This document shows, piece by piece, positions 8,693-36,931 of a stretch of 57,765 nt of DNA; within the stretch, counting starts at the first letter, position 1; each line of letters begins with the position of its first letter. This DNA comes from an uncultured Pelagibacteraceae bacterium (GTDB lineage: Bacteria; Pseudomonadota; Alphaproteobacteria; Pelagibacterales; Pelagibacteraceae), in assembly GCA_902619595.1 (NCBI GenBank), contig CACNFE010000007.1, forward strand, positions 1-57,765, in the 5' to 3' direction. Both the position numbers and the translations under genes were made by a program. The notes beneath the pieces are model-generated. The model worked only from the letters and a program-made list of their open reading frames with translations, had not been told where the DNA came from and did no database searches.

Positions 8693-10018
8693 TTAGCAAT
8701 CCAAAGTATTTTGTTTTTCCCAATTTGTTATAGGACTATTTTTGTCAAAAATTTCTTCCTTTGCAAAATTTGATAATTCTTCCTTTTTGAGTTTTATATA
8801 ACTTTCGATTACATTATCACCAAAAGCTTCTCTTAAAACTTTATTATTATCTAACATATCTAATGAGTCTTCCAGGTCATTTGGTAATTTCGATAAGTTT
8901 GGATAATTTTTATAATCTGTATACATGTTACAGCTTAATGGTTCGCCTGGATCTAATTTTAAATTCATTCCATATAATCCTGATGCAATGACACCGGCCT
9001 GCAACAAGTATGGGTTAGCAGAACCATCCATAAGTCTTAGTTCAAATCTCCCTGGATCGGGAATTCTAATCATGTGAGTTCTGTTATTGCCTGAATAAGA
9101 AATACTGGATGGTGACCAAGAGGCACCCGATTTTGTTGGTGGTGCATTTATTCTTCTATAACTATTTACTGTTGGGTTAAAAAAAGAGGAAAGTGACTCT
9201 GTATTTTTCATAACCCCGGCTAAAAAATTGTATGCGATTTTGCTGAGACCAAATCTATCACCATTATCTAAAAACTTATTAACTTTACCATTCCATAAAG
9301 AAATATGCGCATGACATCCATTTCCAGTTAAATTTTCAAAAGGCTTAGGCATAAATGTAGCTCTTAAACCATGTTTTTCAGCAAGGGATTTAACCATAAA
9401 CTTAAAAAAAACGTGTCTATCAGCAGTGATTAAACAGTCTGAATAATCCCAATTCATCTCAAACTGTCCATTAGCATCCTCATGATCATTTTGATAAGGG
9501 TTCCAGCCTAAATCAATCATACAATCACAAATTTCTTTTATTAATTCATATCGTCTCATTAATGCAGATTGATCGTAACAAGGTTTAGATTGAATATCTC
9601 TTGGATCCGCAATGGATGAACCATCAGGAGATACAAGAAAATATTCGCATTCTACACCCGACATCATCTCTAGATTTTTTTTAGAAAGCTGCTTTATTTG
9701 ATTTTTTAACATAACTCTTGGTGAGGCATTAACTGGTTTACCATTCATCCATAAATCTGATGCCAGCCATCCCACCTCTTTATTCCATGGTAGTTGTATT
9801 AAACTATCTGGATCTGGTATAGCAAACATGTCAGCATCTGCAGGTGTCATATCTAACCATGTTGCAAATCCTGCAAATCCAGCACCATTCTTTTGCATTT
9901 CACTAATTGCTCTTGTAGGAACTAATTTAGATCTGAGTACTCCAAATAAATCAACAAAACTTATTAAAAAATATTTGATTTTTTTTATTTTAGCAATCTG
10001 AGATAAATTTTTTGCCAT
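8693..10018 (-). CDS. glnT: Type III (GlnT-like) glutamine synthetase homologue
   Basis: A 441-residue glutamine-synthetase-fold ligase. The metal/glutamate-binding elements are visible: GVECEYFL, NDHEDANGQFEMNW, GNGCHAHISLW, NPTVNSYRRI and PGRFELRLMDGSANPYL. The N-terminus (FLISFVDLFG, GFAGFATWLDM) is characteristic of the GlnT/type III group found with methylamine and amine-assimilation genes. It is a paralogue of the longer enzyme at 15631-17100. It probably joins glutamate to ammonia or a small amine with ATP; the amine is unknown. Its neighbours are a diaminopropionate lyase and, across a terminator, the methylamine operon. Confidence 0.8.
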   Translation of the reverse strand: MAKNLSQIAKIKKIKYFLISFVDLFGVLRSKLVPTRAISEMQKNGAGFAGFATWLDMTPADADMFAIPDPDSLIQLPWNKEVGWLASDLWMNGKPVNASPRVMLKNQIKQLSKKNLEMMSGVECEYFLVSPDGSSIADPRDIQSKPCYDQSALMRRYELIKEICDCMIDLGWNPYQNDHEDANGQFEMNWDYSDCLITADRHVFFKFMVKSLAEKHGLRATFMPKPFENLTGNGCHAHISLWNGKVNKFLDNGDRFGLSKIAYNFLAGVMKNTESLSSFFNPTVNSYRRINAPPTKSGASWSPSSISYSGNNRTHMIRIPDPGRFELRLMDGSANPYLLQAGVIASGLYGMNLKLDPGEPLSCNMYTDYKNYPNLSKLPNDLEDSLDMLDNNKVLREAFGDNVIESYIKLKKEELSNFAKEEIFDKNSPITNWEKQNTLDC

Positions 10019-10477: not shown

Positions 10478-11878
10478 TTACCTGGTTGCAGAGGCCACGG
10501 ATTTTTCATCATCCTTTGCTGCCTCCATTATTTCATAGTCTAGTCCAGCGATTTCAGCTTCTCTTGGAATTCTTAATTTACCCATTCCATGAAGTATCTT
10601 CGCTATTATAAAACCTGGGATCATTCCTAGAACGAAAAACATTATTATCGCTCCAATGAACATTCCTAAAGGATTTATTGATGCGTAAGTAGCACCGTCC
10701 CACATAGCTCCTACACTATATCCTGATGAAGGATAACCATTTAGAACAAATCCACAGATTACTAGTCCTACAAAACCAGCATAACCATGAACTGCCACTG
10801 CACCAACAGCATCATCTATTTTGAACTTACGTTCAACCCAGTAATGCAATTTATATGCAATAACAACACCGATCATACCAATTATCATTGATTGTATTGG
10901 GTGGTACAAATCATTACCTGCAGAAGCACAAATGATTCCCGCTAGTCCAGAAGAATATGTCCAGAATGGATCTCCTTTAGAGATTACATATCCAGCCAAT
11001 AGTCCTCCTGAAAGTGACATCAAGAAGTTAAAAGTAATACCACTTAATGTAGTAGGGGTTACATAAATGTTCGTCGCGGTAAAGTATGTTACACCTTCCA
11101 TTCCATATTCAGGTCCTAAGTTAAATATAGGTATATTACATGCAGCATAGAAACCCCAGAAACCTGTGTAAATAAGGAACAATCCTATTACAACCAGCCA
11201 AGGATTTCTTGGACCAATGTTTCTTGGTTCTCCACTTGATGTAAACTTACCTATTCTTGGTCCTAAAACGACTAAAATACCAAGCGCAAATCCACCCGCA
11301 ATAGCGTGAATTACTCCTGATGCATAAGCATCATGATATCCTAAAAGTTTTAGCATCCAACCGTCAAAGTGCCATCCCCATGCAGCATCTATAGTCCAGA
11401 ATACTGATCCAATAGCAATTGCCAAGATACCGAAAGCGAAAGTTGTTATTCTTTCAATTACTGCACCTGAAACAATTGAAGCAGCTGTCCATGAGAAAAG
11501 TAGAAACGCTGCCCAGAAAACACCACTGATGTGGTCACCAAGGTTAATAGCCATAAGTTGACTTGTTGCCTTGTAATAAACCGCACTAAATGCAGAGTCA
11601 TCTGTTATTAAAGCGTCACTTCCATTCATTATTGATGGTGCAAGTCCGGGTCCTGTTGGAAAAGCCCAATATATCCACCATCCAAATAAAAACCATGTTA
11701 CTGTTACCAGCGGTATAAGTATTGTGTTTTTCATTAATGTATGTTGATGATGTTTGTATCGGGAAGCTCCAACTTCATACATACAGAATCCCACGTGAAT
11801 TAAGAACATGAGCACTACCGTTATCCAGTAGTAAAATTCTGTAAATATGGTCGTCAATGCACCTAGTTCGTCAGTCAT
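10478..11878 (-). CDS. amt: Ammonium/methylammonium transporter, Amt family
   Basis: A 466-residue integral membrane protein with about eleven membrane segments, the size of Amt/Mep/Rh channels. A pore histidine is recognisable in SGVIHAIAGGFALGI and the second conserved His region in VAVHGYAGFVGLV. It is a diverged member. The gene follows gmaS and mgsABC, so it may import methylammonium or recapture ammonium released by the pathway. A good Shine-Dalgarno (GGAGG, 6 nt before ATG) is present, and a 136-bp gap upstream allows its own promoter. Confidence 0.88.
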   Translation of the reverse strand: MTDELGALTTIFTEFYYWITVVLMFLIHVGFCMYEVGASRYKHHQHTLMKNTILIPLVTVTWFLFGWWIYWAFPTGPGLAPSIMNGSDALITDDSAFSAVYYKATSQLMAINLGDHISGVFWAAFLLFSWTAASIVSGAVIERITTFAFGILAIAIGSVFWTIDAAWGWHFDGWMLKLLGYHDAYASGVIHAIAGGFALGILVVLGPRIGKFTSSGEPRNIGPRNPWLVVIGLFLIYTGFWGFYAACNIPIFNLGPEYGMEGVTYFTATNIYVTPTTLSGITFNFLMSLSGGLLAGYVISKGDPFWTYSSGLAGIICASAGNDLYHPIQSMIIGMIGVVIAYKLHYWVERKFKIDDAVGAVAVHGYAGFVGLVICGFVLNGYPSSGYSVGAMWDGATYASINPLGMFIGAIIMFFVLGMIPGFIIAKILHGMGKLRIPREAEIAGLDYEIMEAAKDDEKSVASATR

Positions 11879-12014: not shown

Positions 12015-12425
12015 TTAAAATTTTCTGTAAGCTTTTTTTAGATCAACAAGTGGATGATTTGGAGACATCTGGAATTTTACTAATAGTTCTCTTGCGATCA
12101 TATCTCTATCTTGTTGGTTATTTGGTAATTTAATTTTTTTTGGAATTGTAACCCAGCCATTTGCATTTCTGTCAAAAACTGCAGGTCTATCCTCTTCGTA
12201 ACCCATGTGAACATCTTCCAGCCAATTTAAATCATCCCACCCCATAGCTTCAATATATTTTTTTAGGAAAGGAGTAAGTCTTGTGTAATCAGGTAAAAGG
12301 TTTACATCATATCTGTAACCAATAGTCTGCCCAATCATTTTTTCTCGGGCAGTTTCTTTTTTCTTACCTAACTGACCTTTGATTTCTTTAGACTTTACTT
12401 TTTTGTTTTTCTTTTTTTTTGCCAT
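12015..12425 (-). CDS. Unknown lysine-rich protein in the mgs operon (136 aa)
   Basis: A 136-residue soluble protein with a highly basic N-terminus (MAKKKKNKKVKSKEIKGQ) and an acidic, Trp-containing middle (MGWDDLNWLEDVHMGYEEDRP). It starts 8 bp after the mgsC stop codon and precedes amt, so it is probably translated with N-methylglutamate synthase. Not recognised as any characterised methylamine-pathway protein. Its codon use and composition match its neighbours. An accessory or assembly role for Mgs or Amt is only inference from position. Confidence 0.7.
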   Translation of the reverse strand: MAKKKKNKKVKSKEIKGQLGKKKETAREKMIGQTIGYRYDVNLLPDYTRLTPFLKKYIEAMGWDDLNWLEDVHMGYEEDRPAVFDRNANGWVTIPKKIKLPNNQQDRDMIARELLVKFQMSPNHPLVDLKKAYRKF

Positions 12426-12433
12426 CTTAAAAT

Positions 12434-13828
12434 TTATATTTTATGAAAATCATCAACACCAACTGTATGATTTGTTCCTGATAAAGGAACTTTTGCTAGC
12501 GCAGATGCTTCCATAGTAAGTGCAGCCATATCTTCTGGTTCTAATGAGTGAATATTTGTTTTACCACACGCTCTTGCTAGAAGTTGTGCCTCTAACGTCA
12601 TAGTATGTAGATAATTGTAAACTCTTAATGCAGCCTCATCTGGATTTAATCTTTTTCTTAATTTTGGATCTTGTGTTGCCACACCCACAGGACAACGACC
12701 TGTATGACAGTGATAACAATGACCAGCTGGCACACCCATTTCTTTTTCAAAGTTTGACTCTGGAATCTCTTTATTACAGTTAAGAGCAATCATTGCACCA
12801 GTTCCAATAGCAATAGCGTCTGCTCCAAGTGCTAGCGCTTTTGCCATGTCAGCACCATCTCTTACACCTCCAGCATAAATTAAAGTAACTTTTCCAGTTT
12901 TACCCACATCATCAATCGCTCTTCTTGCTTCTCTGATAGCAGCAATTCCTGGGATACCAGTATTTGCAGCAGCTATGTGTGGTCCTGCTCCAGTTGATCC
13001 CTCCATACCATCAAGGTAAATAGAATCTGGATCACATTTAGCAGCCATACGTACATCATCATAAACTTTTGCTGCTCCAAGTTTTAACTGTATTGGTACT
13101 TTATTTTTCGTTAATTCTCTTAACTCCTGAACCTTTAAAGCAAGATCATCTGGACCTAACCAATCTGGATGTCTAGCAGGTGATCTTTGATCAATTCCAG
13201 CTGGAAGAGATCTCATTTCAGCAACTTGGTCAGTTACTTTTTGACCCATTAAGTGACCACCCATTCCAACTTTTTGGCCTTGTCCAATAAAAACTTCAAT
13301 ACCATCTGCTAATTGTGCGTGATGCGGATTAAAACCATATCTTGACTGAATACATTGATAGTACCATTTTTCAGAATATCTTCTTTCATCAGGTATCATT
13401 CCACCCTCACCAGAACATGTTGCGCTCCCTGCCATCGTAGCACCTCTTGCTAACGCAGTTTTCGCTTCATAAGATAGCGCACCGAAACTCATACCAGTGA
13501 TATAAACAGGTATATCTAATTCAATAGGATTTTCACATCTTGGTCCAATTATGGTTTTTGTTTCACACTTTTCTCTATAACCTTCTATTACAAATCTTGT
13601 TAAAGTCCCTGGTAAGAAAACTAGATCATCGAACGTTGGAATTTTTTTCATCAACGCCATTCCTCGCATTCTATATCTGCCTAATTGCGCTTTGATATGA
13701 ATGTCGTCAATTACCTCTGGCGTAAAAATCGCGTTATAACCTAAAAGGCTTTTATTTCTTTTTGAAAATTCACTCTTACCATTTCCATTAGAGTGACCGT
13801 TTGATTTACCATTTTTCTTTTTTGCCAT
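12434..13828 (-). CDS. mgsC: N-methylglutamate synthase subunit MgsC (GltB FMN domain-like)
   Basis: A 464-residue homologue of the glutamate-synthase FMN/iron-sulfur domain (GlxD group). It has the barrel motifs SFGALSYEAKTALARGA, GQGQKVGMGGHL, LKLGAAKVYDDV and GADAIAIGTGAMIALNC, plus a Cys cluster at Cys371, Cys374 and Cys379 (CYHCHTGRCPVG) for a 3Fe-4S-type centre. With MgsA and MgsB it is expected to convert gamma-glutamylmethylamide or methylamine with glutamate to N-methylglutamate. The low-complexity N-terminus (KKKNGKSNGHSNGNGKS) is unusual. Its start overlaps the mgsB stop by 1 bp. Confidence 0.87.
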   Translation of the reverse strand: MAKKKNGKSNGHSNGNGKSEFSKRNKSLLGYNAIFTPEVIDDIHIKAQLGRYRMRGMALMKKIPTFDDLVFLPGTLTRFVIEGYREKCETKTIIGPRCENPIELDIPVYITGMSFGALSYEAKTALARGATMAGSATCSGEGGMIPDERRYSEKWYYQCIQSRYGFNPHHAQLADGIEVFIGQGQKVGMGGHLMGQKVTDQVAEMRSLPAGIDQRSPARHPDWLGPDDLALKVQELRELTKNKVPIQLKLGAAKVYDDVRMAAKCDPDSIYLDGMEGSTGAGPHIAAANTGIPGIAAIREARRAIDDVGKTGKVTLIYAGGVRDGADMAKALALGADAIAIGTGAMIALNCNKEIPESNFEKEMGVPAGHCYHCHTGRCPVGVATQDPKLRKRLNPDEAALRVYNYLHTMTLEAQLLARACGKTNIHSLEPEDMAALTMEASALAKVPLSGTNHTVGVDDFHKI

Positions 13829-14682
13829 TATATAGCTCCTTTTTTCTCTGTTGGTTCAAGCGCATCATAATTCCAAAGTTTTTTACCAGCTACAACTTTT
13901 GTCATTTTCGAAACGTCGAAATTATCGCCAATCTCAGCTACTTTAAGTTTTCTTTTTAACCAATCTATATCACTTTTTGTCATAGGGGACTCCACCGCAT
14001 CACTACCAAATGAGCCAATTTTTCCACCTACATAAATAGTTCCGTCGTACATCGAGTCTCCTAAATTAATTCCTACATCTCCTAAAATAACGATTCTTCC
14101 TCTTTGCATCATAAAACCAGTGAATGCACCAGCATCTCCTCCGATGATAATTGTTCCACCTTTTTGGTCAATACCTGTTCTTGCTCCAACACTGCCTTTG
14201 CATATTAAGTCTCCACCCCTTATAGCTGCCCCAAAACAAGACCCAGCATTTTTTTCAATTACTACTTTTCCAGCCATCATATTTTCCGCACAAGACCAAC
14301 CAACTCTTCCATTTACTCTTACCATTGGACCATCGATTGAACCTACGCCAAAATATCCTAAGCTTCCTTCAAAAATTAAATTAAGTTTATTTAATATACC
14401 AACACCCAAACTATGTTTACCTTGAGGATTTTTGATTACAATTGTACCGTAACCCTGGCTCATCAATTCATCAATTTTTCTATTAGCTTGCTTGCAATCT
14501 AAATCTTTTACATCAAGATCTGTTCTTTTATTAAAGTCAACGTCATATGTTCCCCAATAATAAAAATTTTCTGCCTCATCAGGATTAAAGAATTTCTGTT
14601 GAGTTTTACCAGTTAAAACCTCTGTATGCATACCCATTGACTGGGCTTTTGTTTTTTTTTCTGTAGTCTTTAAATTTGCCAT
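13828..14682 (-). CDS. mgsB: N-methylglutamate synthase subunit MgsB (GXGXG domain)
   Basis: A 284-residue protein matching the C-terminal right-handed beta-helix domain of glutamate synthase (GlxC group). The repeated glycine pattern is clear: GRVGWSCAENMMAGKVVI, GSCFGAAIRGGDLI, KGSVGARTGIDQKGGTI, GGDAGAFTGFMMQRG, LGDVGINLGDSMYDG. It is the structural subunit of the three-part N-methylglutamate synthase. It overlaps mgsA by 13 bp and mgsC by 1 bp, indicating translational coupling. Plus-strand frames across it are shadows. Confidence 0.87.
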   Translation of the reverse strand: MANLKTTEKKTKAQSMGMHTEVLTGKTQQKFFNPDEAENFYYWGTYDVDFNKRTDLDVKDLDCKQANRKIDELMSQGYGTIVIKNPQGKHSLGVGILNKLNLIFEGSLGYFGVGSIDGPMVRVNGRVGWSCAENMMAGKVVIEKNAGSCFGAAIRGGDLICKGSVGARTGIDQKGGTIIIGGDAGAFTGFMMQRGRIVILGDVGINLGDSMYDGTIYVGGKIGSFGSDAVESPMTKSDIDWLKRKLKVAEIGDNFDVSKMTKVVAGKKLWNYDALEPTEKKGAI

Positions 14683-15611
14683 ACTTTCACTTCTCCATCA
14701 AAAGGATCATACGTATCTATTTCTTGTGGCAAAATAGATCTAATAGCTATTTCCTCTGAACCCATCGCAACTAAATCATCGGACTCGTATAGAACCAATG
14801 GTTTTGCCGCCATAGTATCTTTTGCCATACCTAAAGAATCTTTTGTTGCTACGAAATATGTGAACACTCCATCTAAACCACTTAAAGAGTCTTTCATACC
14901 TTCCTCTAATGTAGCACCATTTCTCATTTTTTCTGCCAAGTACACTGCGATCAATTCTGAGTCACATTCTGACATAAATCTCATTCCTTTATTTTCTAGA
15001 ACTCTTCTATTATTCCAATAATTAGTTAATTGACCATTATGAACAACAGATACATCGCTAAAAGGATAACCCCAAAAAGGGTGGGCAGATTTAATATCAA
15101 CACCAGACTCCGTTGCCATTCTTGCATGTCCAATAGCGTGGGTACCTTTTACATCTGCGAGACCATATCTTTTTGATACAGCTTCAGCATCACCAAGATC
15201 TTTTATTAATTCAAGTGATTTACCAATTGATAAAATTTCAACACTTTCAATGCTTTCAATTTTTTTTGAAAATTCCATCAGATCATCATTAAATTGCATT
15301 TCATATCTAAATGAATAAGGTGTAAGTCTATCCTCTTTAATTACCTTCGCTCCTAATTCAGATAACATTTGATCAACCATTTTTCTTCTTTTATCGTAAA
15401 CACTTGGGTCTTCATTTATAGAAGTACTTCCCTCACCAACATTTTCTCCAACTTTAAATCGCATAATGAAGTTTTGACCGTCATTTTCTGCATATAACGC
15501 ATACCCTGTTGAGTCTGGCCCTCTGTGCTTAAGAGCCTGCAACATAAGCTGTAATTCAGATCCTACGTTAGAAGATTTTCCTCTGTGAATTAGTCCAGCT
15601 ATTCCGCACAT
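14670..15611 (-). CDS. mgsA: N-methylglutamate synthase subunit MgsA (class II glutamine amidotransferase)
   Basis: A 313-residue class II (Ntn-type) glutamine amidotransferase. The sequence begins MCGIAGLIHRG, so Cys2 becomes the N-terminal nucleophile after Met removal. Further family blocks are GHARMATES, VVHNGQLTNYW and SECDSELIAVYLAE. In this operon it is expected to act on gamma-glutamylmethylamide made by GmaS. It lies 19 bp after gmaS and overlaps mgsB by 13 bp. Confidence 0.88.
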   Translation of the reverse strand: MCGIAGLIHRGKSSNVGSELQLMLQALKHRGPDSTGYALYAENDGQNFIMRFKVGENVGEGSTSINEDPSVYDKRRKMVDQMLSELGAKVIKEDRLTPYSFRYEMQFNDDLMEFSKKIESIESVEILSIGKSLELIKDLGDAEAVSKRYGLADVKGTHAIGHARMATESGVDIKSAHPFWGYPFSDVSVVHNGQLTNYWNNRRVLENKGMRFMSECDSELIAVYLAEKMRNGATLEEGMKDSLSGLDGVFTYFVATKDSLGMAKDTMAAKPLVLYESDDLVAMGSEEIAIRSILPQEIDTYDPFDGEVKVWQI

Positions 15612-15630: not shown

Positions 15631-17100
15631 CTATGGTAGACAATCTAGATAAGTATCTAGATCCCATTGAGTTGTTGCTCCTAGAAATCTTTCCCACTCG
15701 TCATTTTTATACCAATGAAACACTTTATACATTTCACCTGGTAACGCAGATTTTATAACTTCATCCTCTGACAATCTTGCTAAAGCTTCACCAAGACTTA
15801 ATGGTAGTTTCTTAACATCTTTACCTGCTTTTTGAGCCTCATAGATATTTCTAGATTCTGGCGCTGCAGGTTTCATTTTTTTTGTAATTCCTTCATCACA
15901 TGCTTTTAATAAAGCAGCTCCCAATAAATAAGGATTGTGCATCGAATCCACAGATCTGTATTCAAATCTACCAGGTGCAGAAACTCTCAATCCACAAGTT
16001 CTGTTTTGATATCCCCAGTCAGCATAAACAGGCGCCCAAAAACCTTGGTCCCAAAGTCTTCTATATGAGTTAACAGTTGATGAACCTAAAGCGGTTAGTG
16101 CTGGCAAGTGTTCCATAATCCCGGCAATTGATTGCAATCCTATTTTTCCAGGCAGTTGCATATCTTTTGTGTCCGGCATAAACGTATTTGTTCCACCTGA
16201 AACATAACTAAAAACTTCCTCAACTCCTGGAAGTTTTTTATGTCCCAATTTGTTTACAGAAATTTTTCCACCTTTCCACAAAGACATGTTTGTATGACAT
16301 CCACTAGCTGACACCCCCATGAATGGTTTGGTCATAAAACAAGCTATTAAACCATGTTCTCTAGCTACTTGTGCACATATTTGTCTGTACGTTGATAATC
16401 TGTCTGCATTTCTTAAAACATTATCAAAAGTCCAGTTTAATTCTAATTGGCCTGGGGCATCCTCATGGTCACCTTGAATCATGTCTAACCCCATAGCTTT
16501 TGAATATTCAATTACTTTCATAAAGACAGGCCTTAGAGATTCAAACTGATCTATGTGATAACAAAATGGTTTTGAAAAACCTTTACCAGTTGGAGTACCA
16601 TCCTCGTTTTTTGTAAGCCACATCATTTCTGGTTCTGTTCCAACTCTTAATTCCAAACCATGTTTCTTTTGGAATTCATCCATAAAAATTCTTAAATTAC
16701 CTCTACAATCAGAAGTTAAATGTCCACCAGGATTTTCTCTTTCTTCTCTATTTCTAAAACAAGTACAAAAAACTCTTCCAACTCTTTTATCCCATGGAAG
16801 TTGAACGAAGGTTTCAGGATCAGGTATACCAACAAGCTCCATAGCTTCAGGTCCATAGCCAATATAATTGTTATGTCTATCTAGAAAAAGGTTTGCTGTT
16901 GCGCCATATACTAATTGGAAACCTTTTTCTGCTGTTCTTTCCCAGTGATCTGCTGGAATTCCTTTTCCAACAACTCTACCAGTAACAGAAATGAATTGAA
17001 AATATATATAAGTAATTCCTAACTCGTTAATTTTTTCTCTAACTTTTTTAACCAGCTTATCTCTTCCTGGTTGATTAACATGTTTTTCTAGATCAGTCAT
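15631..17100 (-). CDS. gmaS: Gamma-glutamylmethylamide synthetase candidate (GS family)
   Basis: A 489-residue glutamine-synthetase-fold enzyme. GS motifs are present: GTEPEMMW, GDHEDAPGQLELNW, ASGCHTNMSLW, STVNSYRRLW, NRTCGLRVSAPGRFEYRSVDS. The ATG at 17100, preceded by a GAGGGG Shine-Dalgarno, is preferred over a TTG 12 bp upstream. GmaS joins methylamine to glutamate with ATP as the first step of the N-methylglutamate pathway. The call rests on its position directly before mgsABC and a calculated size near 55 kDa. It differs clearly from the GlnT-like paralogue at 8693-10018, so which one is the true GmaS needs a test. Confidence 0.75.
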   Translation of the reverse strand: MTDLEKHVNQPGRDKLVKKVREKINELGITYIYFQFISVTGRVVGKGIPADHWERTAEKGFQLVYGATANLFLDRHNNYIGYGPEAMELVGIPDPETFVQLPWDKRVGRVFCTCFRNREERENPGGHLTSDCRGNLRIFMDEFQKKHGLELRVGTEPEMMWLTKNEDGTPTGKGFSKPFCYHIDQFESLRPVFMKVIEYSKAMGLDMIQGDHEDAPGQLELNWTFDNVLRNADRLSTYRQICAQVAREHGLIACFMTKPFMGVSASGCHTNMSLWKGGKISVNKLGHKKLPGVEEVFSYVSGGTNTFMPDTKDMQLPGKIGLQSIAGIMEHLPALTALGSSTVNSYRRLWDQGFWAPVYADWGYQNRTCGLRVSAPGRFEYRSVDSMHNPYLLGAALLKACDEGITKKMKPAAPESRNIYEAQKAGKDVKKLPLSLGEALARLSEDEVIKSALPGEMYKVFHWYKNDEWERFLGATTQWDLDTYLDCLP

Positions 17101-17166
17101 TTTACCCCTCAAAGTTTTAAGATCAAAAAGGTAACTGAAAAAAAAACGTCTGTCTACTTAGATAAC

Positions 17167-18492
17167 TTAGCTCCAAGGAAACGGACTGTTCGAAGTAGGG
17201 TGAAGCTCTCCCTTCGCGTATCGGTTGAATCTAAACGGTTTTAACAATGTACTCTCTTGACCTAAAATTTCTTGCGCAACAAGGTGACCAACACCCAACA
17301 TTTTATATCCATGATTAGCATCAGCAATCATGTAAACGTTTTCTAAAAATCTATCAAAGATAGGAAATGAATCTGGAGTTAAACATCCAAGTCCACCAGA
17401 TGGTCCCTTTCTATATAAATTTGACTTACCTTCAAATCTTTTTTGGCAATGAGCTAGTGCTGAGGACCACATATCTGCAAACTCATCAGTTGTTTGATAC
17501 TCCGGCGAGTCCAATCCATAAGGATCGACATTAACTTTATCAAAATGTTTTTGAACAATGTAAGGTGAAGTTCCGCCTTGAACACCTAAACCTTCAATAT
17601 CAGGTTTATAATATATTCCCCATAATTTATCTGTAATTAGTTTTTTATCTTTATCTGAGTAAAGAGGCGCATCTGTATCCACATGAATTACTGGAGGCTG
17701 TTTACCCTCATTTGTCCTTAGATAATCCGCTTCAACCCCAAGAACACCTTCTTGCAAAAACCAATAAGTCCACATATCAACTTGGTGCATTTTACCATCC
17801 TTACCTTTTATGTCGGTTGTTTTAGGTAATTCCAACATATTCCAGAAGTCTCTTACCCATGGTCCCGCACCAACAACTACTTGGTCACAATCTATTGTTC
17901 CTTGATCTGTAATAACTCCTGTAACAGCGTTACTATTGCTCCCTTTTTTGAAACCTGTAACTTTTACGCCTTTATGAACATTAACTCCATTAGCGTTGGC
18001 TTTTTTTTCTAATGCTTTAATTGAGTCTTTGTTGAATGCATATCCACCCTTTTTTTCATGAAGAACAGATGTAATTCCTTTTGCTTGCCAGTCGTCGAAA
18101 ATTCCTTTCATATATTTATCACAATCTTTTTCTCCTTCGATAAATTCTGAATCATATCCAATTGCTTTTTGTTGATTGTAAATACTAGCTACGTCCTCAT
18201 GCATTATTTCTGGTGAAATCTGCATATATCCAACTGCATTATATTTAAATGCTTTTGGATCGCTCTCCCAAACCTCAACTGAGTGAGCCATTAATTCTCT
18301 CATTGCTGGTTGAAAATAATTATTTCTTACAACACCACATGCTATTCCACTTGCACCTGCAGCAGTGTCTTTTTTTTCTAATACGACAATGTCATTAGGA
18401 TTTTTATATGTCTCTGATAATTTCCATGCAGTGCTTAAACCGTGTATACCACCACCGATTACAACTACTTTTGCTTTTGTTGGTAAAGCCAT
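17167..18492 (-). CDS. FAD-dependent amine oxidoreductase, DAO / sarcosine-oxidase-beta-like
   Basis: A 441-residue flavoprotein of the DAO family. The dinucleotide-binding motif VVVIGGGIHGLSTAWKLSE lies at residues 9-27, followed by VLEKKDTAAGASGIACGVVR, and a C-terminal GYKMLGVGHLVAQEILG typical of this fold. It should oxidise a secondary or tertiary N-methyl amine. It sits between tdm and gmaS, the place where dimethylamine must become methylamine, and no DmmDABC is present. Options are N-methylglutamate dehydrogenase or a dimethylamine dehydrogenase. Substrate not shown by sequence. Confidence 0.8.
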   Translation of the reverse strand: MALPTKAKVVVIGGGIHGLSTAWKLSETYKNPNDIVVLEKKDTAAGASGIACGVVRNNYFQPAMRELMAHSVEVWESDPKAFKYNAVGYMQISPEIMHEDVASIYNQQKAIGYDSEFIEGEKDCDKYMKGIFDDWQAKGITSVLHEKKGGYAFNKDSIKALEKKANANGVNVHKGVKVTGFKKGSNSNAVTGVITDQGTIDCDQVVVGAGPWVRDFWNMLELPKTTDIKGKDGKMHQVDMWTYWFLQEGVLGVEADYLRTNEGKQPPVIHVDTDAPLYSDKDKKLITDKLWGIYYKPDIEGLGVQGGTSPYIVQKHFDKVNVDPYGLDSPEYQTTDEFADMWSSALAHCQKRFEGKSNLYRKGPSGGLGCLTPDSFPIFDRFLENVYMIADANHGYKMLGVGHLVAQEILGQESTLLKPFRFNRYAKGELHPTSNSPFPWS

Positions 18493-18528
18493 AACTGAAC
18501 TTTATTTTTTGTGCGACAAAAGTATATA

Positions 18529-18552
18529 ATATTTTTTATATATAAAAAATAT
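18529..18552. promoter_or_regulatory. 24-bp perfect A/T palindrome upstream of the DAO-gmaS-mgs genes
   Basis: ATATTTTTTATA is followed directly by its exact reverse complement. It lies in the 97-bp gap between the winged-helix gene and the DAO-family gene, 37 bp before the latter's start codon. It could be an operator for the adjacent winged-helix protein or an internal mRNA stem. There is no T-run after it on the minus strand, so it is not a typical terminator. Confidence 0.4.
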
Positions 18553-18589
18553 AAGTAAATTGAATTCAACCATCAGTTTAGCTGTATTT

Positions 18590-18940
18590 TCAAAAACTTA
18601 AATTTTTCAAAGTTGCTAAATAATCATTAAATTCATTAATAAATGCTTGGCTCGGTTTAATGAATTTTTTTCTTTGATCTTTCAAATTTTTTTCCAAATA
18701 AAAAAAACCTTTCTCACAAGCTTCATTAATTATCAATGCTGATTTTGGTCTAGAAGTTTTAAAAAGTTTAGTTTTTAATTCTTCAACTGACAAATTTTGC
18801 TTTAATTTATAAGCAGTCATTACTAAAAGCATCATATGATAATGAGAAGGAGATTTTCTGAAAAAATAATTACTAGACTTGTGAGATAATTTCATTTGAT
18901 CCTCCCAAAACTCCAACAAGTCTTTTGTAGCTTTGTTCAT
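18590..18940 (-). CDS. Small winged-helix (MarR-like) putative regulator
   Basis: A 116-residue protein with a helical N-terminus, a probable helix-turn-helix (SVEELKTKLFKTSRPKSAL) and a wing-like segment (KDQRKKFIKPS) that resembles the basic wing of MarR-family regulators. No membrane segment. Its start overlaps the tdm stop by 1 bp, so it is translated with TMAO demethylase. A perfect palindrome lies just downstream, before the DAO gene. Function as a regulator of methylamine genes is inference; the fold call is moderate. Confidence 0.55.
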   Translation of the reverse strand: MNKATKDLLEFWEDQMKLSHKSSNYFFRKSPSHYHMMLLVMTAYKLKQNLSVEELKTKLFKTSRPKSALIINEACEKGFFYLEKNLKDQRKKFIKPSQAFINEFNDYLATLKNLSF

Positions 18941-21267
18941 TAAGATCTTACTTTGAGTTTCTTAGGATCATAAAATGGGAATGAAATTACTTTAGCTGGT
19001 ATTCTTTTTTGGTGACCATCAATTTTACCTATTTCAACTTCTTTGCCTTCCTCAGCATATTTTGCATCAATTCTGCACAAAGCTATATTTTTATTTAAAG
19101 TTTTTGATAACATTGCACTAGTAACTACACCAACTTGTCCTCTACCAATATGTACTGAGTTACCATTTGCTGCAGGTTCATGTCCAACCAACTCTAGTCC
19201 TACTAATTTTTTTTGTGGATTATTTTTTCTTTTTATTAATTCTTCTTTTCCAATAAAATCATCTTCTTTCGTTTTTAAAGGAACTGTAAAACCTATCCCA
19301 GCCTCAAAAGGATCTGTCTTATCGTCAAATTCATAACCATAAAAAATTAGTCCAGCTTCAATTCTTACCATGTCCAAAGCTTCTAAACCTAATGGAGAAA
19401 TATTAAATTCTTTTCCAGCTTCCCAAACTTTATCCCATACAATAGAAGCATCTTTAGGATGACACCAGATTTCAAATCCTAATTCTCCTGTATATCCTGT
19501 TCGTGAAACAACTATTGGTGTTCCTGTAACACTATCTATTCTTGCGATAGTCAATCTAAACCATTGCAGATCATCTATGGAAGGCTGAGTATCAGGAGTC
19601 CAAACAAATTTTTTTAAAATTTTTCTGCTATTAGGACCTTGAACAGCAATATTATGGATTTGATCGGTTGAGGACTTAACCCATACCTTAAAATTTTTCT
19701 TTTTAGCTTGTTCTTTCAGCCATTGACCGCCGTATTCTTGACCACCAATCCATCTAAAGTTATCTTGACCAAATTTAAGCAGAGTTCCATCGTCAATCAT
19801 ACAACCATTTTCATAGCACATAGCAGAATAGACAACTTGTCCTGCGGAAAGTTTTTTAACATTCCTTGTAAGTGCATATTGCATTAAATTTTCTGCATCT
19901 GGTCCAAGTATTTCAAATTTTCTTAAAGGTGAAAGATCCGTTACAATGGCACTTTCTCTACAAGATGTATATTCTTTTACTGCGCCGTAATTTGTGTAAT
20001 TATTTGCTAACCAATATCCGTTATAATTAATAAAATTTTTTGTTAGCTTTGAAGTCTTTTCATGAAAGCCTGTTTCTTTTGTAATTTTTGGTTCTGAATC
20101 TGTGCTCACTCTAAAAGCTACCCCTTTCGAGATCTTTTTATCTTTTGCATATGTTCTAACAAATATATCAGTTGGATTCCATCCATTTGCTGCATCTACA
20201 TCACATGGACATGCAGAAGATGCACACGTAAGATCTTTCAATGCTCTAAAAAGCACGTAATCGCCAGGTCTTGACCAAGGTTCATCAAAAGTTGCAACGT
20301 TATTAGCATCGATTGCAGTATTAAAAAATAAATTTATCGCTATCCAACCTTTTCTTGGTTTCACTTCATATTTTTCTAATGAATTATTAAAATTTGTTGA
20401 ACAATTAATGTGACCGAAATAGCCCATGTCCTCATAATATTTTGATGTACAAGCGTAATTGAAGGTGTCATGCCTCCCAACTGTATCTCTTACAACCTCA
20501 ATTACAGGTTCATGCTCAGCATCAAAAAACTTTGAAAATAAACCTGGCATAGGATATGCAGCACCCATAAAAGTTCTTGTTGCTGTGGGGTCTATTATGC
20601 TCTCGACTCCTTTATCTAGTTTCCTTTTATCAAATGCTAAAAAATCTGAACATTGTCTTCCGCCTGGATCAATTATTTGAATGTATTCTCCAGCTTTAAC
20701 TTCATAAGTTTCAGACGACATTCGATTAACAAATATTTCTGATATTGGATCATAAAGAGGTTCTGGTAGAACATATTGCTCTTCCTTTATATCAAATTTT
20801 GCCCTATGTATAAAAATTGTAAGACTTGTTGGCGGATTTTGATTATGAACACTCATTAATTCGCCAGGAGAGCCGATCATTACAATACATTTATCTTTTG
20901 ATTGAAGAGTAACTATCTCTCCCATTGGACAATCTTTATCAAAAAGTCTTGAAGCTTTTGATCTTTCTAAATCTAAATTTTTTTTTTTAAAAATATTTGA
21001 AATTTTTTGATCCTGACTTATTGATTTTTTTAAAAAATCTCCATCAGAGTTTTCTTTAAGATTTAAGATTGTTAGATCGTGTTTCCCTTTAGAGTTAAAA
21101 GCGATAACCTCGCAAAATTGTTTTCCTTCATCGTTTACTATTTCTATTTTATCATCTGAATTAATTTCAAAAACATGGATGCCACCACCTTGAATAACAT
21201 ATCTTTCAACTCCAGGTGGCAAAACCCTTAGACCAGGATTTTTTATAAGGTTGCTTGAAAGCGACAT
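18940..21267 (-). CDS. tdm: Trimethylamine N-oxide demethylase Tdm (DUF1989 + GcvT)
   Basis: A 775-residue cytoplasmic fusion. Residues about 1-390 hold DUF1989-type sequence with a Cys cluster (Cys348, Cys353, Cys355 in CASSACPCD) suited to Zn/Fe binding. Residues about 400-775 are a GcvT-type tetrahydrofolate domain (SRTGYTGELGFEIWC). This architecture and length are those of Tdm, which splits TMAO to dimethylamine and formaldehyde, with tetrahydrofolate as likely acceptor. It is divergent from tmoX across a 113-bp promoter region and leads the minus-strand methylamine operon. Confidence 0.9.
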   Translation of the reverse strand: MSLSSNLIKNPGLRVLPPGVERYVIQGGGIHVFEINSDDKIEIVNDEGKQFCEVIAFNSKGKHDLTILNLKENSDGDFLKKSISQDQKISNIFKKKNLDLERSKASRLFDKDCPMGEIVTLQSKDKCIVMIGSPGELMSVHNQNPPTSLTIFIHRAKFDIKEEQYVLPEPLYDPISEIFVNRMSSETYEVKAGEYIQIIDPGGRQCSDFLAFDKRKLDKGVESIIDPTATRTFMGAAYPMPGLFSKFFDAEHEPVIEVVRDTVGRHDTFNYACTSKYYEDMGYFGHINCSTNFNNSLEKYEVKPRKGWIAINLFFNTAIDANNVATFDEPWSRPGDYVLFRALKDLTCASSACPCDVDAANGWNPTDIFVRTYAKDKKISKGVAFRVSTDSEPKITKETGFHEKTSKLTKNFINYNGYWLANNYTNYGAVKEYTSCRESAIVTDLSPLRKFEILGPDAENLMQYALTRNVKKLSAGQVVYSAMCYENGCMIDDGTLLKFGQDNFRWIGGQEYGGQWLKEQAKKKNFKVWVKSSTDQIHNIAVQGPNSRKILKKFVWTPDTQPSIDDLQWFRLTIARIDSVTGTPIVVSRTGYTGELGFEIWCHPKDASIVWDKVWEAGKEFNISPLGLEALDMVRIEAGLIFYGYEFDDKTDPFEAGIGFTVPLKTKEDDFIGKEELIKRKNNPQKKLVGLELVGHEPAANGNSVHIGRGQVGVVTSAMLSKTLNKNIALCRIDAKYAEEGKEVEIGKIDGHQKRIPAKVISFPFYDPKKLKVRS

Positions 21268-21380: not shown

Positions 21381-22328
21381 ATGAGAAGAATAATATCATT
21401 ATTATCTGCAGTTATAATTTCAGTAGTAAGTTTTGCTGGAATATCAAACGCAGCAGATAGCAAAAAGCCCATCGTAATCCCAACTCATAACTGGTCAAGC
21501 CAAATTGTAATGGCTTACGTTATTGGTGGAATTATGGAAAGTATGGGAAATAATGTTAAATATGTTAACGCTGACTCTCAAGCAGTTTACGAGTCAATTA
21601 GAATTGGTGACGTAACATTATCTCACGAAGTATGGGAATCTGCTTTTGGTAAATCATTCACAACTGCTTTGGATAAAGGCGGATTGCTTGACTGGGGTGA
21701 CCATGAAGCAAGAACACTTGAAGATATGGGATATCCAAACTGGGTTGCCGAAAAAGGATTATGCCCAGGTCTACCAGACTGGACTGCTTTAAAAAATCCT
21801 GACTGTGCTAAAAACTTTACAACACCTGACTCTCCGGATGGAAAAGGAAGAATGTTGGAAGGTCCACAAACTTGGCATGGTGACTTAATTCCACAAAGGG
21901 TTGACGCTTTAGGTTTAGGAGATCTTTGGTGGGTTAAATTTGCTGGAAGTGCTGATGCACTTTGGGCAGAGTTAGCAGCAGCTGAAAAAGAAGGAAGAGG
22001 AACAATCATCTTTAACTGGACACCTAACTTTACAGATGGTGCTGGTTTTACATTTATCGACTTTCCTCCATACACAGCAGGTTGTAGACCTGAAGATGGT
22101 GGAGATGGAAAATGTGGTTCGCCTGATGGTTATTTGAAAAAAGCAGTTAACGCTGATTTTCCAAAAACTCATCCAAAAGCAGCAGCAATGTTTAAAAAAC
22201 TTTCTTTCACAACAAGTCAAATTGGTGCAATGGCAGCTTTAGTTGACATTGACAAAATGACTCACGAAGATGCTGCAAAAGCATGGTTAAAAAAGAACGA
22301 GAAAGTTTGGAAAGCTTTTACTAAATAA
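21381..22328 (+). CDS. tmoX: TMAO-binding periplasmic protein TmoX
   Basis: A 315-residue OpuAC/ProX-type substrate-binding protein with a signal peptide (hydrophobic residues 4-20, cleavage near SNA-A at 24/25). Trp and Cys residues typical of quaternary-amine binding pockets are abundant (THNWSSQ, GDLWWVKFAG, IIFNWTPNF). TmoX captures TMAO for the ABC importer with TmoW and TmoV. It is followed by a strong terminator, so it should be made in excess over the membrane subunits. Context with tdm and tmm supports TMAO specificity over betaine. Confidence 0.88.
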   Translation: MRRIISLLSAVIISVVSFAGISNAADSKKPIVIPTHNWSSQIVMAYVIGGIMESMGNNVKYVNADSQAVYESIRIGDVTLSHEVWESAFGKSFTTALDKGGLLDWGDHEARTLEDMGYPNWVAEKGLCPGLPDWTALKNPDCAKNFTTPDSPDGKGRMLEGPQTWHGDLIPQRVDALGLGDLWWVKFAGSADALWAELAAAEKEGRGTIIFNWTPNFTDGAGFTFIDFPPYTAGCRPEDGGDGKCGSPDGYLKKAVNADFPKTHPKAAAMFKKLSFTTSQIGAMAALVDIDKMTHEDAAKAWLKKNEKVWKAFTK

Positions 22329-24914: not shown

Positions 24915-24916
24915 TT

Positions 24917-27074: not shown

Positions 27075-28406
27075 TTACTTATCCAAAAAGGTTTTTGATG
27101 AGTCATCCATTGCAGTTGCCCACGGAGTATGGTGTATCGGAGCAACAGATCCTGTAACAGGAGATGAAAAAGATTTATTTCTATAAGTAGATATGTCCTC
27201 AACTTTATGATGTTCCCACTCTTTAAAATGCTTTCTTATTAATTCAAAATCAATTTTTGGATAGTCAGACATTTTATAAAGTTCTTTGGTATATTCTGTT
27301 TGAAAGTCAATCATTTGATCAGGATTCTCTAATTTTTCTTCCATAGCTACCCATTTGTTAATATCTTTTTCAATTTCATTATCACTAGGGATTTTAATTT
27401 TATTCAAAATTACATCTCTTGCGTACCATGCTTGGCAATCGAACATGTTAAATGTATGAAACTGATCCTGCATTCCTAAATACATAAGCTTATGATTATC
27501 TTGCCATACAACACCCTTGTATAATTTTGGTGGATAAAGCCTATTTCTAGTTTTTAGTTGTAAACTCTCATCCAAGAAAGGAAAATGATGTAAATAACCA
27601 GTACATAAAATCACAACATCTGTCTCTTGTTCAGTACCATCTTTAAAAAATGCTTTCTTACCTTCAAGTCTATCTAGATAATGGACCTCTTTCATTCCTT
27701 TGGGCCATTTAAATCCCATAGGATTATGTCTATATCCGATAGTTACACTTTTAGCTCCATACTTATTACATTGAAGCGCAATATCCTCTGCTGAATAACT
27801 GCTCCCAAGAACAACTATATTTTTACCTCTAAACTCTTCCGCATCTCTAAAATCATGAGAGTGCATAATTCTTCCAGGAAAAGAACTCATTCCTTTATAC
27901 TCAGGAATAAAAGGTACAGAAAAATGCCCTGTTGAAACCACAACATAATCAAAGTTATCTTTTAAAATCTTATTGTTAACTTTGTCTTGGTAGCTTAGCT
28001 CAAATTTATCGTTTTTATAAATTGTATTAATAACTCTTGTATTAAATTTAATTTTTTTTCTTAGATTACCTTTACTTACTCTTGCAACAATATAATCATA
28101 TAAAACTTCTCTTGGAGGAAAAGAAGGTATTGGTTTACCAAAATGTTCATCAAAAGAATAATCTGCAAATTCCAAACACTCTTTTGGACCATTAGACCAA
28201 AGATACCTATACATACTATTGTGAACAGGATCTCCAAATTGATCTGATCCAGTTCTCCAGCTATAATTCCATAAACCACCCCAGTCTTCTTGTTTTTCAA
28301 AACAAACAATTTCTGGTATTTTTTCTCCATTCTTCTCAGCCGACTCAAAAGCTCTCAGCATTGACAGACCACAAGGTCCAGCTCCAATTATTGCAACTTT
28401 AGTCAT
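27075..28406 (-). CDS. tmm: Trimethylamine monooxygenase Tmm (flavin-containing monooxygenase)
   Basis: A 443-residue FMO that oxidises TMA to TMAO with NADPH and O2. FAD motif GAGPCGLSML (residues 8-17), the FMO fingerprint FPGRIMHSHDFRD, and the NADPH motif VVLGSSYSAEDIAL are all present. The gene lies tail to tail with tmoV and head to head with the gpsA-adh-gsh operon. In SAR11 this protein opens the TMA pathway. A GAGG ribosome site precedes the ATG. Length and context make this confident. Confidence 0.93.
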   Translation of the reverse strand: MTKVAIIGAGPCGLSMLRAFESAEKNGEKIPEIVCFEKQEDWGGLWNYSWRTGSDQFGDPVHNSMYRYLWSNGPKECLEFADYSFDEHFGKPIPSFPPREVLYDYIVARVSKGNLRKKIKFNTRVINTIYKNDKFELSYQDKVNNKILKDNFDYVVVSTGHFSVPFIPEYKGMSSFPGRIMHSHDFRDAEEFRGKNIVVLGSSYSAEDIALQCNKYGAKSVTIGYRHNPMGFKWPKGMKEVHYLDRLEGKKAFFKDGTEQETDVVILCTGYLHHFPFLDESLQLKTRNRLYPPKLYKGVVWQDNHKLMYLGMQDQFHTFNMFDCQAWYARDVILNKIKIPSDNEIEKDINKWVAMEEKLENPDQMIDFQTEYTKELYKMSDYPKIDFELIRKHFKEWEHHKVEDISTYRNKSFSSPVTGSVAPIHHTPWATAMDDSSKTFLDK

Positions 28407-35405: not shown

Positions 35406-36662
35406 ATGCAAAAGTATTCAGTATTTAACCTCATAAAGAACGCATTCTCTAGTCATGAAAACTGGGAAGTTGCCTGGAAAGACCCAACTCCAAAAAAAAG
35501 TTATGACGTTATTATTATTGGAGGCGGAGGACATGGGCTCGCTACCGCATATTATCTAGCTAAAGAACATAATATTACAAATGTTGCTATTATTGAAAAA
35601 GGCTGGATAGGGGGAGGTAACGTTGGAAGAAATACTACGATTATAAGATCCAATTTTATGCACGATGCCAATGGAAGATTTAACGAATTTTCTATGGATC
35701 TATGGAGAAATATGAGTCAAGAACTGAACTTCAATGTAATGTTCTCTCCAAGAGGAATTATTAACCTTGCGCATTCTGATGCTCAAATGAATGCTTACGC
35801 AAGAAGAGGAAACTCAATGAGATTAAACGGTATCGATGCAGTTTTATTAAATAGGAAACAAGTAAAAAAACTAATTCCTATGGCAGATTTTTCTGAAGAT
35901 GTAAGATTTCCAATATTTGGTGGATTGATGCAGCCCAGCGCTGGAACAGCTAGGCACGACGCAGTTGCTTGGGGTTATGCAAGACAAGCAGATTCAATGG
36001 GTGTTGATATAATTCAGAATTGCGAAGTAATTGGATTTGATGTGATTGGTGGAAAAATAAAAGGAGTAAGAACTTCAAAAGGTGATATTAAGGCAAACAA
36101 AATAGGACTATGTGTTGCTGGCAGTACATCAATTCTCGCTGAAAAATTAAATATGACACTTCCAATTGAGACACATCTTTTACAAGCATGTGTATCTGAG
36201 CCTATTAAACCTCTCTTGGATCATGTAGTTACATTTGGTGCAGGACATTTTTATTGCAGTCAGTCAGATAAAGGCGAAATGGTTATGGGAGGTGACCTGG
36301 ACGGTTATAATAGTTATGCTCAAAGAGGAAACTTGCCAACTTTACAACATGTATTAACTGAAGGAATAGCAATGTTCCCATTTTTAAGTAAATTAAAAAT
36401 GTTGAGGACATGGGGTGGTATAATGGATATGTCAATGGATGGCTCACCAATAATTGATAAAACACATATTGAAGGATTATATTTAAACTGTGGTTGGTGT
36501 TATGGTGGTTTTAAATCAACTCCCGCATCCGGTTGGACGTTTGCACATACTATTGCACAAGACAAAGTACATAAATTAAATGCAGATTATAGTTTAAATA
36601 GATTTAGCAAGGGATATTTATTAGACGAGAAAGGTCTTGGAACAAAAACTTGGATATCTTAA
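35406..36662 (+). CDS. soxB: Sarcosine oxidase / N-methylglutamate dehydrogenase beta subunit (SoxB/MgdA type)
   Basis: A 418-residue FAD subunit: VIIIGGGGHGLATAYYLAKEHN near residues 33-54, NVGRNTTIIRSNF, and GWCYGGFKSTPASGW near the C-terminus, all typical of heterotetrameric sarcosine oxidase beta. The frame is open 150 bp further upstream, but the ATG at 35406 gives the normal N-terminus and avoids running into fhs. It begins a tight soxBDAG operon. Homology alone does not decide between sarcosine oxidase and N-methylglutamate dehydrogenase (MgdABCD). Confidence 0.88.
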   Translation: MQKYSVFNLIKNAFSSHENWEVAWKDPTPKKSYDVIIIGGGGHGLATAYYLAKEHNITNVAIIEKGWIGGGNVGRNTTIIRSNFMHDANGRFNEFSMDLWRNMSQELNFNVMFSPRGIINLAHSDAQMNAYARRGNSMRLNGIDAVLLNRKQVKKLIPMADFSEDVRFPIFGGLMQPSAGTARHDAVAWGYARQADSMGVDIIQNCEVIGFDVIGGKIKGVRTSKGDIKANKIGLCVAGSTSILAEKLNMTLPIETHLLQACVSEPIKPLLDHVVTFGAGHFYCSQSDKGEMVMGGDLDGYNSYAQRGNLPTLQHVLTEGIAMFPFLSKLKMLRTWGGIMDMSMDGSPIIDKTHIEGLYLNCGWCYGGFKSTPASGWTFAHTIAQDKVHKLNADYSLNRFSKGYLLDEKGLGTKTWIS

Positions 36663-36929
36663 ATGCTATTTATAAAATGCCCATATTGTGGAATAAGATC
36701 TCAAAATGAATTCGCTTATGGTGGTGATGCTACAGTAAAAAGGCCAGAACTTAACAAGGAAATTTCTGATAAAGAATGGGATGATTTTGTTTACAATAGA
36801 AAAAGTCCTAGAGGAAAACATTTAGAGTTTTGGCATCACATCTCAGGTTGTAGACAATGGTTTAAAGTTCATAGAGATACAGCTACTCATGAAATATTTA
36901 AAACTTTAAAACCTCACGAAGAGCTTTGA
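36663..36929 (+). CDS. soxD: Sarcosine oxidase-type delta subunit (SoxD)
   Basis: An 88-residue zinc protein with CPYCG near the N-terminus (residues 6-10) and a His-His-x-x-x-Cys segment (WHHISGCRQW) that together fit the Zn site of the delta subunit. It sits between soxB and soxA without a gap. The size and motif are diagnostic for the heterotetrameric enzyme. Confidence 0.92.
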   Translation: MLFIKCPYCGIRSQNEFAYGGDATVKRPELNKEISDKEWDDFVYNRKSPRGKHLEFWHHISGCRQWFKVHRDTATHEIFKTLKPHEEL

Positions 36930-36931
36930 TA

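Follow-up and report, generated by a model that had tools for sequence, protein, structure and literature searches.

What consumes dimethylamine in marine bacteria of the SAR11 type? The step is wanted in some of the most abundant bacteria of the ocean because two reports stand against each other. Lidbury et al. 2017 (PMC5520151) describe dmmDABC as absent from all SAR11 representatives and dimethylamine as a bottleneck, yet strain HTCC1062, which lacks dmmDABC, uses trimethylamine N-oxide (TMAO) as sole nitrogen source, with much weaker growth than on ammonium and with an isoenzyme of unknown identity proposed, according to PMC8918994. This growth leaves a gap in the pathway. The locus studied here lies in a 57,765-nucleotide stretch of an uncultured Pelagibacteraceae bacterium (contig CACNFE010000007.1 of assembly GCA_902619595.1), hereafter the window, which belongs to a 1.0 Mb draft genome that is 84.87% complete. 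It holds the gene of a DAO-family flavoprotein, called DAO below, between a TMAO demethylase gene and a glutamine-synthetase-like gene, GS493. From sequence comparisons we tentatively propose, at somewhat less than an even chance, that DAO is part of a second amine pathway, mediated by glutamate, in which dimethylamine would be handled without a monooxygenase, and that DAO would be an N,N-dimethylglutamate demethylase filling the gap. The genes concerned are as follows.

18940..21267, minus strand: tdm, trimethylamine N-oxide demethylase, the dimethylamine source (NF053776 1143.6 bits, above the cut-off of 1100; DUF1989 + GCV_T + GCV_T_C).
18590..18940, minus strand: x116, 116 aa, overlapping the end of tdm and lying between tdm and DAO (no family above cut-off).
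17167..18492, minus strand: DAO flavoprotein, 441 aa (PF01266 121.5 bits, cut-off 27.9).
15631..17112, minus strand: GS493, glutamine-synthetase-like putative amine ligase and GmaS paralog (TIGR03105 295.9 bits, below the cut-off of 469.6).
14670..15611, minus strand: mgsA2, class II glutaminase-like subunit (GATase_6/7).
13828..14682, minus strand: mgsB2, GXGXG subunit (PF01493).
12434..13828, minus strand: mgsC2, glutamate-synthase-like FMN subunit (PF01645 302 bits; 54% to a canonical MgsC).
12015..12425, minus strand: X136, 136 aa, last gene of the set (no Pfam above cut-off).
8693..10018, minus strand: canonical GmaS, gamma-glutamylmethylamide synthetase (TIGR03105 609.3 bits, cut-off 469.6; 7cql E 4.7e-171).

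The first eight genes form one minus-strand run, tdm-x116-DAO-GS493-mgsA2-mgsB2-mgsC2-X136, which ends at 12015 and has gaps of -1, 97, 54, 19, -13, -1 and 8 bp. An earlier note on this DNA had recognised tdm, which its family score bears out, and had placed a DAO-family gene between tdm and gmaS in one operon. The DAO-family gene and the minus-strand run stand, but the neighbour on the gmaS side is the paralog GS493, and x116 intervenes on the tdm side. Among 40 loci, x116 is restricted to those of the SAR11 genus (L060-L062, L074, L075).

GS493 and GmaS differ by score and by phylogeny. The solved GmaS structure 7cql matches 8693-10018 with 572.5 bits and GS493 with 160.4 bits; ordinary glutamine synthetases reach up to 188.3 bits with 7cql, above its GS493 score. 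GS493 is 27% identical to the GmaS of the window, and a tree places GS493 (29 rows) and GmaS (14 rows) on opposite sides of one branch with a support of 100. By these comparisons the neighbour of DAO is a GmaS paralog and the canonical GmaS is the gene at 8693-10018.

Residues were then compared in RhGmaS numbering. The 26 GS493 rows comprised the sequence from the window and the top 25 among 55 hits; they were set against 14 GmaS rows, in which one locus appears twice. K30, E122, Y147, Q175, D177, E179, E186, N188, R312 and R317 are identical in 26/26 and 14/14 rows, respectively. They include the catalytic D177, E186 and R312 of GmaS and its amine-site residues K30, Y147, Q175, E179 and N188, all kept in every GS493 row. 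GS493 departs from GmaS at A48 (V), Y174 (I) and H237 (N), in 26/26 rows against A, Y and H in 14/14; position 48 adjoins an insertion in GS493. According to PMC7948447, the ATP site of GmaS includes positions 174 and 237, the loop carrying position 48 makes no contact with methylamine, and position 48 is the counterpart of the ammonium-binding aspartate of glutamine synthetase. The idea that the amine pocket of GS493 had been remodelled for dimethylamine was withdrawn for this reason, which made the dimethylamine pathway somewhat less likely and a methylamine route (below) somewhat more so. The ammonium aspartate is absent from GS493, with Val in 26/26 rows, as it is from GmaS. Because the catalytic residues of GmaS are kept and this aspartate is missing, GS493 appears to be an amine ligase. 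PMC7948447 also reports that RhGmaS ligates dimethylamine weakly (Km 16 mM, kcat 2.57/s; methylamine Km 27 µM), so the chemistry proposed for GS493 is possible.

In the proposed pathway, Tdm would release dimethylamine, as is known for its family, and GS493 would join it to glutamate to give gamma-glutamyldimethylamide. By analogy with N-methylglutamate synthase, MgsABC2, perhaps with X136, would split this amide and move the amine reductively onto 2-oxoglutarate, forming N,N-dimethylglutamate. DAO, as a demethylating dehydrogenase or oxidase of this N,N-dimethyl amino acid, would oxidise one N-methyl group and leave N-methylglutamate and a one-carbon unit. An enzyme of the SoxBDAG/MgdABCD type would finally convert N-methylglutamate to glutamate, and methylamine would not be an intermediate. 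The earlier note had suggested that soxBDAG could already act as N-methylglutamate dehydrogenase, and SoxB- and SoxA-type genes are present in the window at 35.4-39.9 kb. It had also listed a dehydrogenase for N,N-dimethylglutamyl compounds among the possible roles of DAO, an option close to the explanation preferred here, DAO being tied to methylated-amine genes. Its observation was thus largely right apart from one wrong gene label, and its interpretation partly right.

The mgsABC2 genes have the make-up of an N-methylglutamate synthase, namely a glutaminase subunit with an N-terminal Cys, a GXGXG subunit and a Glu_synthase subunit. The N-terminus of mgsA2 reads MCG in the window and in 54 of the 55 hits read, some loci being counted twice. 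X136 has 44 hits, 41 of them distinct, in the other fetched loci, and gives no match in the canonical-only loci L239, L242, L274 and L281. X136 is small and highly conserved, with many invariant residues; its model has a mean predicted local distance difference test score (pLDDT) of 75.9 and found no fold match in the PDB at E <= 0.001.

DAO and GS493 often occur together. DAO occurs in 21 of 61 near genomes (its own, 19/36 of the same genus and 1/24 of the same order). In a sample of 385 genomes of the class, 48 gave DAO hits, and 43 remained (its own included, a few fragments) after five distant hits of 36-42% identity were set aside (G088, G116, G208, G244, G307); DAO is therefore no chance open reading frame. 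GS493 occurs in 39 of the 385, and the two are found together in 32 genomes (p 1e-30). The named loci are the best 80 of 584, some fetched twice: 32 of these 80 have GS493 or mgs2 genes no more than 5 kb from DAO, and where both DAO and GS493 could be placed (31 loci), GS493 follows directly downstream on the same strand in 29. The cluster extends over Alpha- and Gammaproteobacteria and over metagenome-assembled genomes (MAGs) of Acidobacteriota and Latescibacterota; tdm joins it in Pelagibacterales and in L169 and L192, one Acidobacteriota and one Latescibacterota MAG locus. A plasmid search with DAO returned nothing at E <= 1e-40. In the gammaproteobacterial locus L282 (G538), an inserted DAO-GS493-mgs2-X136 set separates soxB from soxA, and tdm lies downstream.

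We take PF11927, the catalytic subunit of a haem-dependent N-demethylase type, to represent Dmm. The earlier note had seen no DmmDABC in the window; this held, and in the draft genome no PF11927 match came up at E <= 1, in a search that did not separately target dmmD or the remaining dmm subunits. Across the class sample, tdm is present in 35 genomes (six of them score under the NF053776 cut-off, including G148 with a partial gene). GS493 accompanies it in 27, of which 26 were found by search and one, G406, at a contig edge. Strong PF11927 hits occur in 0/27 GS493-positive tdm genomes (G397 has a weak one) and in 6/8 GS493-negative ones (p 1.7e-5). Counting the weak hits of G397 and of G319, which is GS493-negative, both at about 59 bits and above the Pfam cut-off, gives 1/27 against 7/8 (p 9e-6), and leaving out G406 gives p 5e-5. 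By family, Dmm is found in 0/13 against 5/6 (p 5e-4), G319 sitting in f32, which is scored GS493-positive. A profile of tdm-linked Dmm, built from six Dmm proteins that include those of G312, G343, G370 and G148 and not that of G219, matches five of the six genomes with strong PF11927 hits, G082 reaching just 51.8 bits; without G082 the count in GS493-negative tdm genomes is 5/8 (p 1.7e-4). Three tdm genomes that have GS493, namely G108, G131 and G137 (81, 82 and 95% complete), show no GmaS and no strong Dmm hit, and so have no other known use for their dimethylamine.

In Gammaproteobacteria, which also count in favour, tdm is found in 9 of 229 genomes, one being the centre, which was chosen for having the cluster. 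Of the remaining eight, four (G705, G587, G542, G538) carry DAO or members of the GS493 set in the stretches around tdm, with DAO alone at a contig end in G705, and one (G681) carries Dmm there. In none of these genomes do the stretches hold Dmm together with DAO or GS493-set members, and those of G716, G599 and G636 hold neither. The distance from dmm to canonical gmaS-mgs genes is at most some 15 kb in G681, and likewise in G312 of the class sample.

What DAO itself would act on is indicated by its fold. The AlphaFold model (pLDDT 92.1) matches PDB entries with Z from 41.8 to about 35, the nearest folds being the proline dehydrogenase 1y56_B, SoxB, monomeric sarcosine oxidase (MSOX), glycine oxidase and dimethylglycine dehydrogenase (DMGDH). 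Judged by title, most of the top matches are enzymes acting on amino acids or N-methyl amino acids; identity does not exceed 24% in the 50 structural matches listed. R56 and K397 of DAO are invariant (40/40), and SoxB has an Arg and a Lys at the aligned positions. These two SoxB residues presumably hold the substrate carboxylate, which simple amines do not have. DAO falls below the cut-offs of the SoxB model TIGR01373 (79.5 vs 529.45 bits) and of the monomeric sarcosine oxidase model TIGR01377 (41.6 vs 479.65). With 441 aa and no GCV_T match, it also differs from dimethylglycine dehydrogenase in having no fused folate-binding domain.

These data bear on the role that the earlier note had put first, a dimethylamine oxidase or dehydrogenase. 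DAO would then oxidise free dimethylamine to methylamine, to be taken up by the GmaS at 8693-10018, with GS493-Mgs2 as a mere neighbour. The position of DAO between tdm and amine-ligase genes would agree with this, as would a near exclusion between DAO and Dmm in tdm-positive genomes (1/25 against 5/10, p 0.004). However, the exclusion of Dmm is stronger for GS493 than for DAO, the fold relatives and the invariant Arg and Lys speak for an amino-acid substrate, and G219 has Dmm of the tdm-linked type together with DAO and no GS493. We consider a free-dimethylamine oxidase improbable. It was set aside as the best reading on fold, substrate residues and co-occurrence.

Several observations, given here with the alternatives on which they bear, weigh against the proposed dimethylglutamate pathway. 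The tree intermixes DAOs with and without an adjacent GS493, and at the thresholds applied the GS493-linked DAOs (39 rows) differ from the GS493-free ones (30 of 33) at no diagnostic residue. DAO genomes without an adjacent GS493 number 46 (46 of 48 loci plus L175, with L172 and L204 left out); 13 of them have GS493 elsewhere and 33, of unstated completeness, show none at E <= 1e-120, so DAO has another job too. Within 6.5 kb of the GS493-free DAOs we found a GbcA-like Rieske gene in 10/33, a homocysteine-methyltransferase (BHMT-like) gene in 2/33, sox genes in 7/33 and GbdR-like regulators in 6/33. These labels derive from cluster representatives, the GbcA and GbdR scores are below cut-off, and many stretches end at contig ends. 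This evidence points to N,N-dimethyl amino acids like dimethylglycine as the substrates of the DAO family, with N,N-dimethylglutamate in the GS493 setting. The pair SoxBDAG and MgdABCD, which act on sarcosine and N-methylglutamate, respectively, provides a precedent for two such substrates.

DAO might instead be a dimethylglycine demethylase of glycine-betaine breakdown everywhere, its adjacency to tdm and GS493 reflecting shared regulation. The 12/33 GS493-free loci with a GbcA-like Rieske or BHMT-like gene and the sox neighbours fit this, and so does the lack of any residue difference between the two kinds of DAO. In Pseudomonas vlassakiae (L188:6099-19767), gbcA-like and gbcB-like genes, DAO, purU, folD and soxB-soxA lie in one 14-kb stretch, whose gene content suggests an alternative dimethylglycine demethylase. 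Against it, the window has its own gene of DMGDH architecture beside a homocysteine S-methyltransferase gene, the direct DAO-GS493 order is conserved in distant lineages, and the GbcA-like hits are under the cut-off. We regard a dimethylglycine role everywhere as rather unlikely.

Some further DAO loci stand apart. In L225, L232 and L237 (Hellea, Caulobacterales), a GcvT-type protein follows DAO, and the L237 copy scores 579.4 against a dimethylsulfoniopropionate (DMSP)-demethylase cut-off of 410. L095-L098 form a distant DAO group of 36-40% identity, in which L095-L097, the aligned members, have the invariant residues; no amine-set genes were found near L095-L098. The near-complete (99%) one-contig SAR11 genome G357 keeps x116 and DAO (L062:9352-11123) beside genes that by eye are glycerol-kinase-like and sugar-type ABC-transporter-like. 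Searches of G357 for tdm, GS493 and GmaS gave no hit, a difficulty for the proposed pathway.

All seven methylamine-site residues of the solved GmaS are identical in GS493, and sequence therefore gives no preference for dimethylamine over methylamine. The MgsC types add to this difficulty. Only the DAO-linked type was found in the window's own genome and in the complete G267, as well as in three further members of the genus, G009, G033 and G027; both types occur in G012, G034 and G018, and the canonical type alone in G004. With no canonical MgsC in its own genome and in G267, Mgs2 would have to accept, and probably handles there, gamma-glutamylmethylamide too. A second methylamine route has to be weighed for these two reasons: GS493 would make gamma-glutamylmethylamide, Mgs2 would make N-methylglutamate, and DAO would serve as a single-subunit N-methylglutamate dehydrogenase or in an accessory role. 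Yet a SoxA-type match is present in 48 of the 50 genomes with DAO or GS493 (two or more in 45, some of them fragments), so that a dehydrogenase is already there; DAO as the sole N-methylglutamate dehydrogenase was set aside on this count. The 30 genomes tested for GmaS, moreover, include 24 with GS493, and 19 of these have both (GmaS gave no hit in G146, G254, G137, G131 and G108). The dimethylamine of tdm genomes with GS493, which have no strong Dmm, would be left unexplained. A second methylamine route is, in our judgement, unlikely.

Other difficulties concern distribution. Of the 39 GS493 genomes, 13 have no tdm. G131, G137 and G426 (82, 95 and 98% complete) have tdm and GS493 and no DAO ortholog, and inspection by eye of the genes beside GS493 in G426 and G137 showed no flavoprotein in its stead, just a divergent gene resembling the GntR/FCD regulators found upstream elsewhere (a family result from another locus). 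SoxA-type matches number three in G426 and two in G137. Lineage is a confounder of the exclusion between Dmm and GS493, which depends on a single Pfam model, and for the gammaproteobacteria the stretches near tdm were read, not whole genomes. The set could also serve another amine, such as ethylamine or a larger environmental amine, SAR11 having some further dimethylamine enzyme. The GS493 genomes without tdm would be accounted for; the linkage to tdm across several phyla and the complementary occurrence of Dmm make another amine quite improbable.

The remaining features of the window are listed below.

10478..11878, minus strand: amt, ammonium transporter, downstream of X136 (PF00909 181.4 bits).
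21381..22328, plus strand: tmoX-like substrate-binding protein, beyond tdm (PF04069 OpuAC).
23886-27070: ATPase- and permease-type ABC transporter genes (PF00005, PF00528).
27075..28406, minus strand: tmm, trimethylamine monooxygenase (NF058570 745.2 bits, cut-off 675).
35406..40506, plus strand: soxB-, soxA- and soxG-type genes, candidate N-methylglutamate dehydrogenase or sarcosine oxidase (DAO, SO_alpha_A3 + GCV_T, SoxG).
53636-56041: gene of DMGDH architecture, adjoining the homocysteine S-methyltransferase gene at 52590-53636.

The Tmo names (likely tmoXWV, a glycine-betaine-type ABC transporter) are our assumption from likeness of place to HTCC1062 (PMC8918994). SoxA matches in the window's own genome number two, one in the window, with the SoxB-type gene, and one at G000:C6:21490; no search was made for soxD. 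The gap between amt and the canonical GmaS is 459 bp. In the complete G012 this place holds a canonical mgsABC set, and no canonical MgsC was found in the window's own genome or in the complete G267, as if it had been lost. No RNA family reached the Rfam gathering score in the window.

On the tree, the DAO of the window groups with those of named Pelagibacteraceae (SAR11-like). In HTCC1062, the aminomethyltransferase gene SAR11_1303 adjoins SAR11_1304, a 'monomeric sarcosine oxidase' (PMC3160333), and SAR11_1305 is annotated glnT (PMC5069961). By locus-tag order, not by sequence comparison, SAR11_1303, 1304 and 1305 should be tdm, DAO and GS493. The wider claim, that the tdm-linked DAO-GS493-MgsABC2-X136 set is a monooxygenase-free dimethylamine route that bypasses methylamine, and the missing step that gives SAR11 and others the nitrogen of trimethylamine and TMAO, is one we make with still more reserve. 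In the open-licence literature, covered by titles and abstract openings, we found no proposal of a gamma-glutamyldimethylamide/dimethylglutamate route, nor one for SAR11_1304-1309. If the claim is true, estimates of the loss of marine dimethylamine to the air could change, and surveys may miscount GS493 genes as gmaS. A named gene set and a specific intermediate make the dimethylamine step directly testable.

Among the closest known systems is the GmaS-MgsABC-MgdABCD N-methylglutamate pathway, which likewise combines, in one cluster, an amine ligase, a three-part glutamate-synthase-like enzyme and a flavoprotein of the sarcosine-oxidase type. Here, however, the ligase belongs to a separate clade below the GmaS cut-off, X136 is an extra gene, and the flavoprotein is the one-gene DAO. 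DmmDABC would share with the GS493 set its pathway position after Tdm and rarely co-occurs with it in tdm genomes; the protein families are different, and an oxygenase route contrasts with the proposed ATP- and glutamate-dependent one. DAO resembles SoxB, monomeric sarcosine oxidase and dimethylglycine dehydrogenase in its fold and in the Arg and Lys that align with the substrate pair, whereas it lies far under the TIGR01373 and TIGR01377 cut-offs and carries no fused folate domain. Its nearest counterpart by place is SAR11_1304 of HTCC1062, beside the aminomethyltransferase gene SAR11_1303, an equivalence drawn from the locus-tag order in PMC3160333 and PMC5069961.

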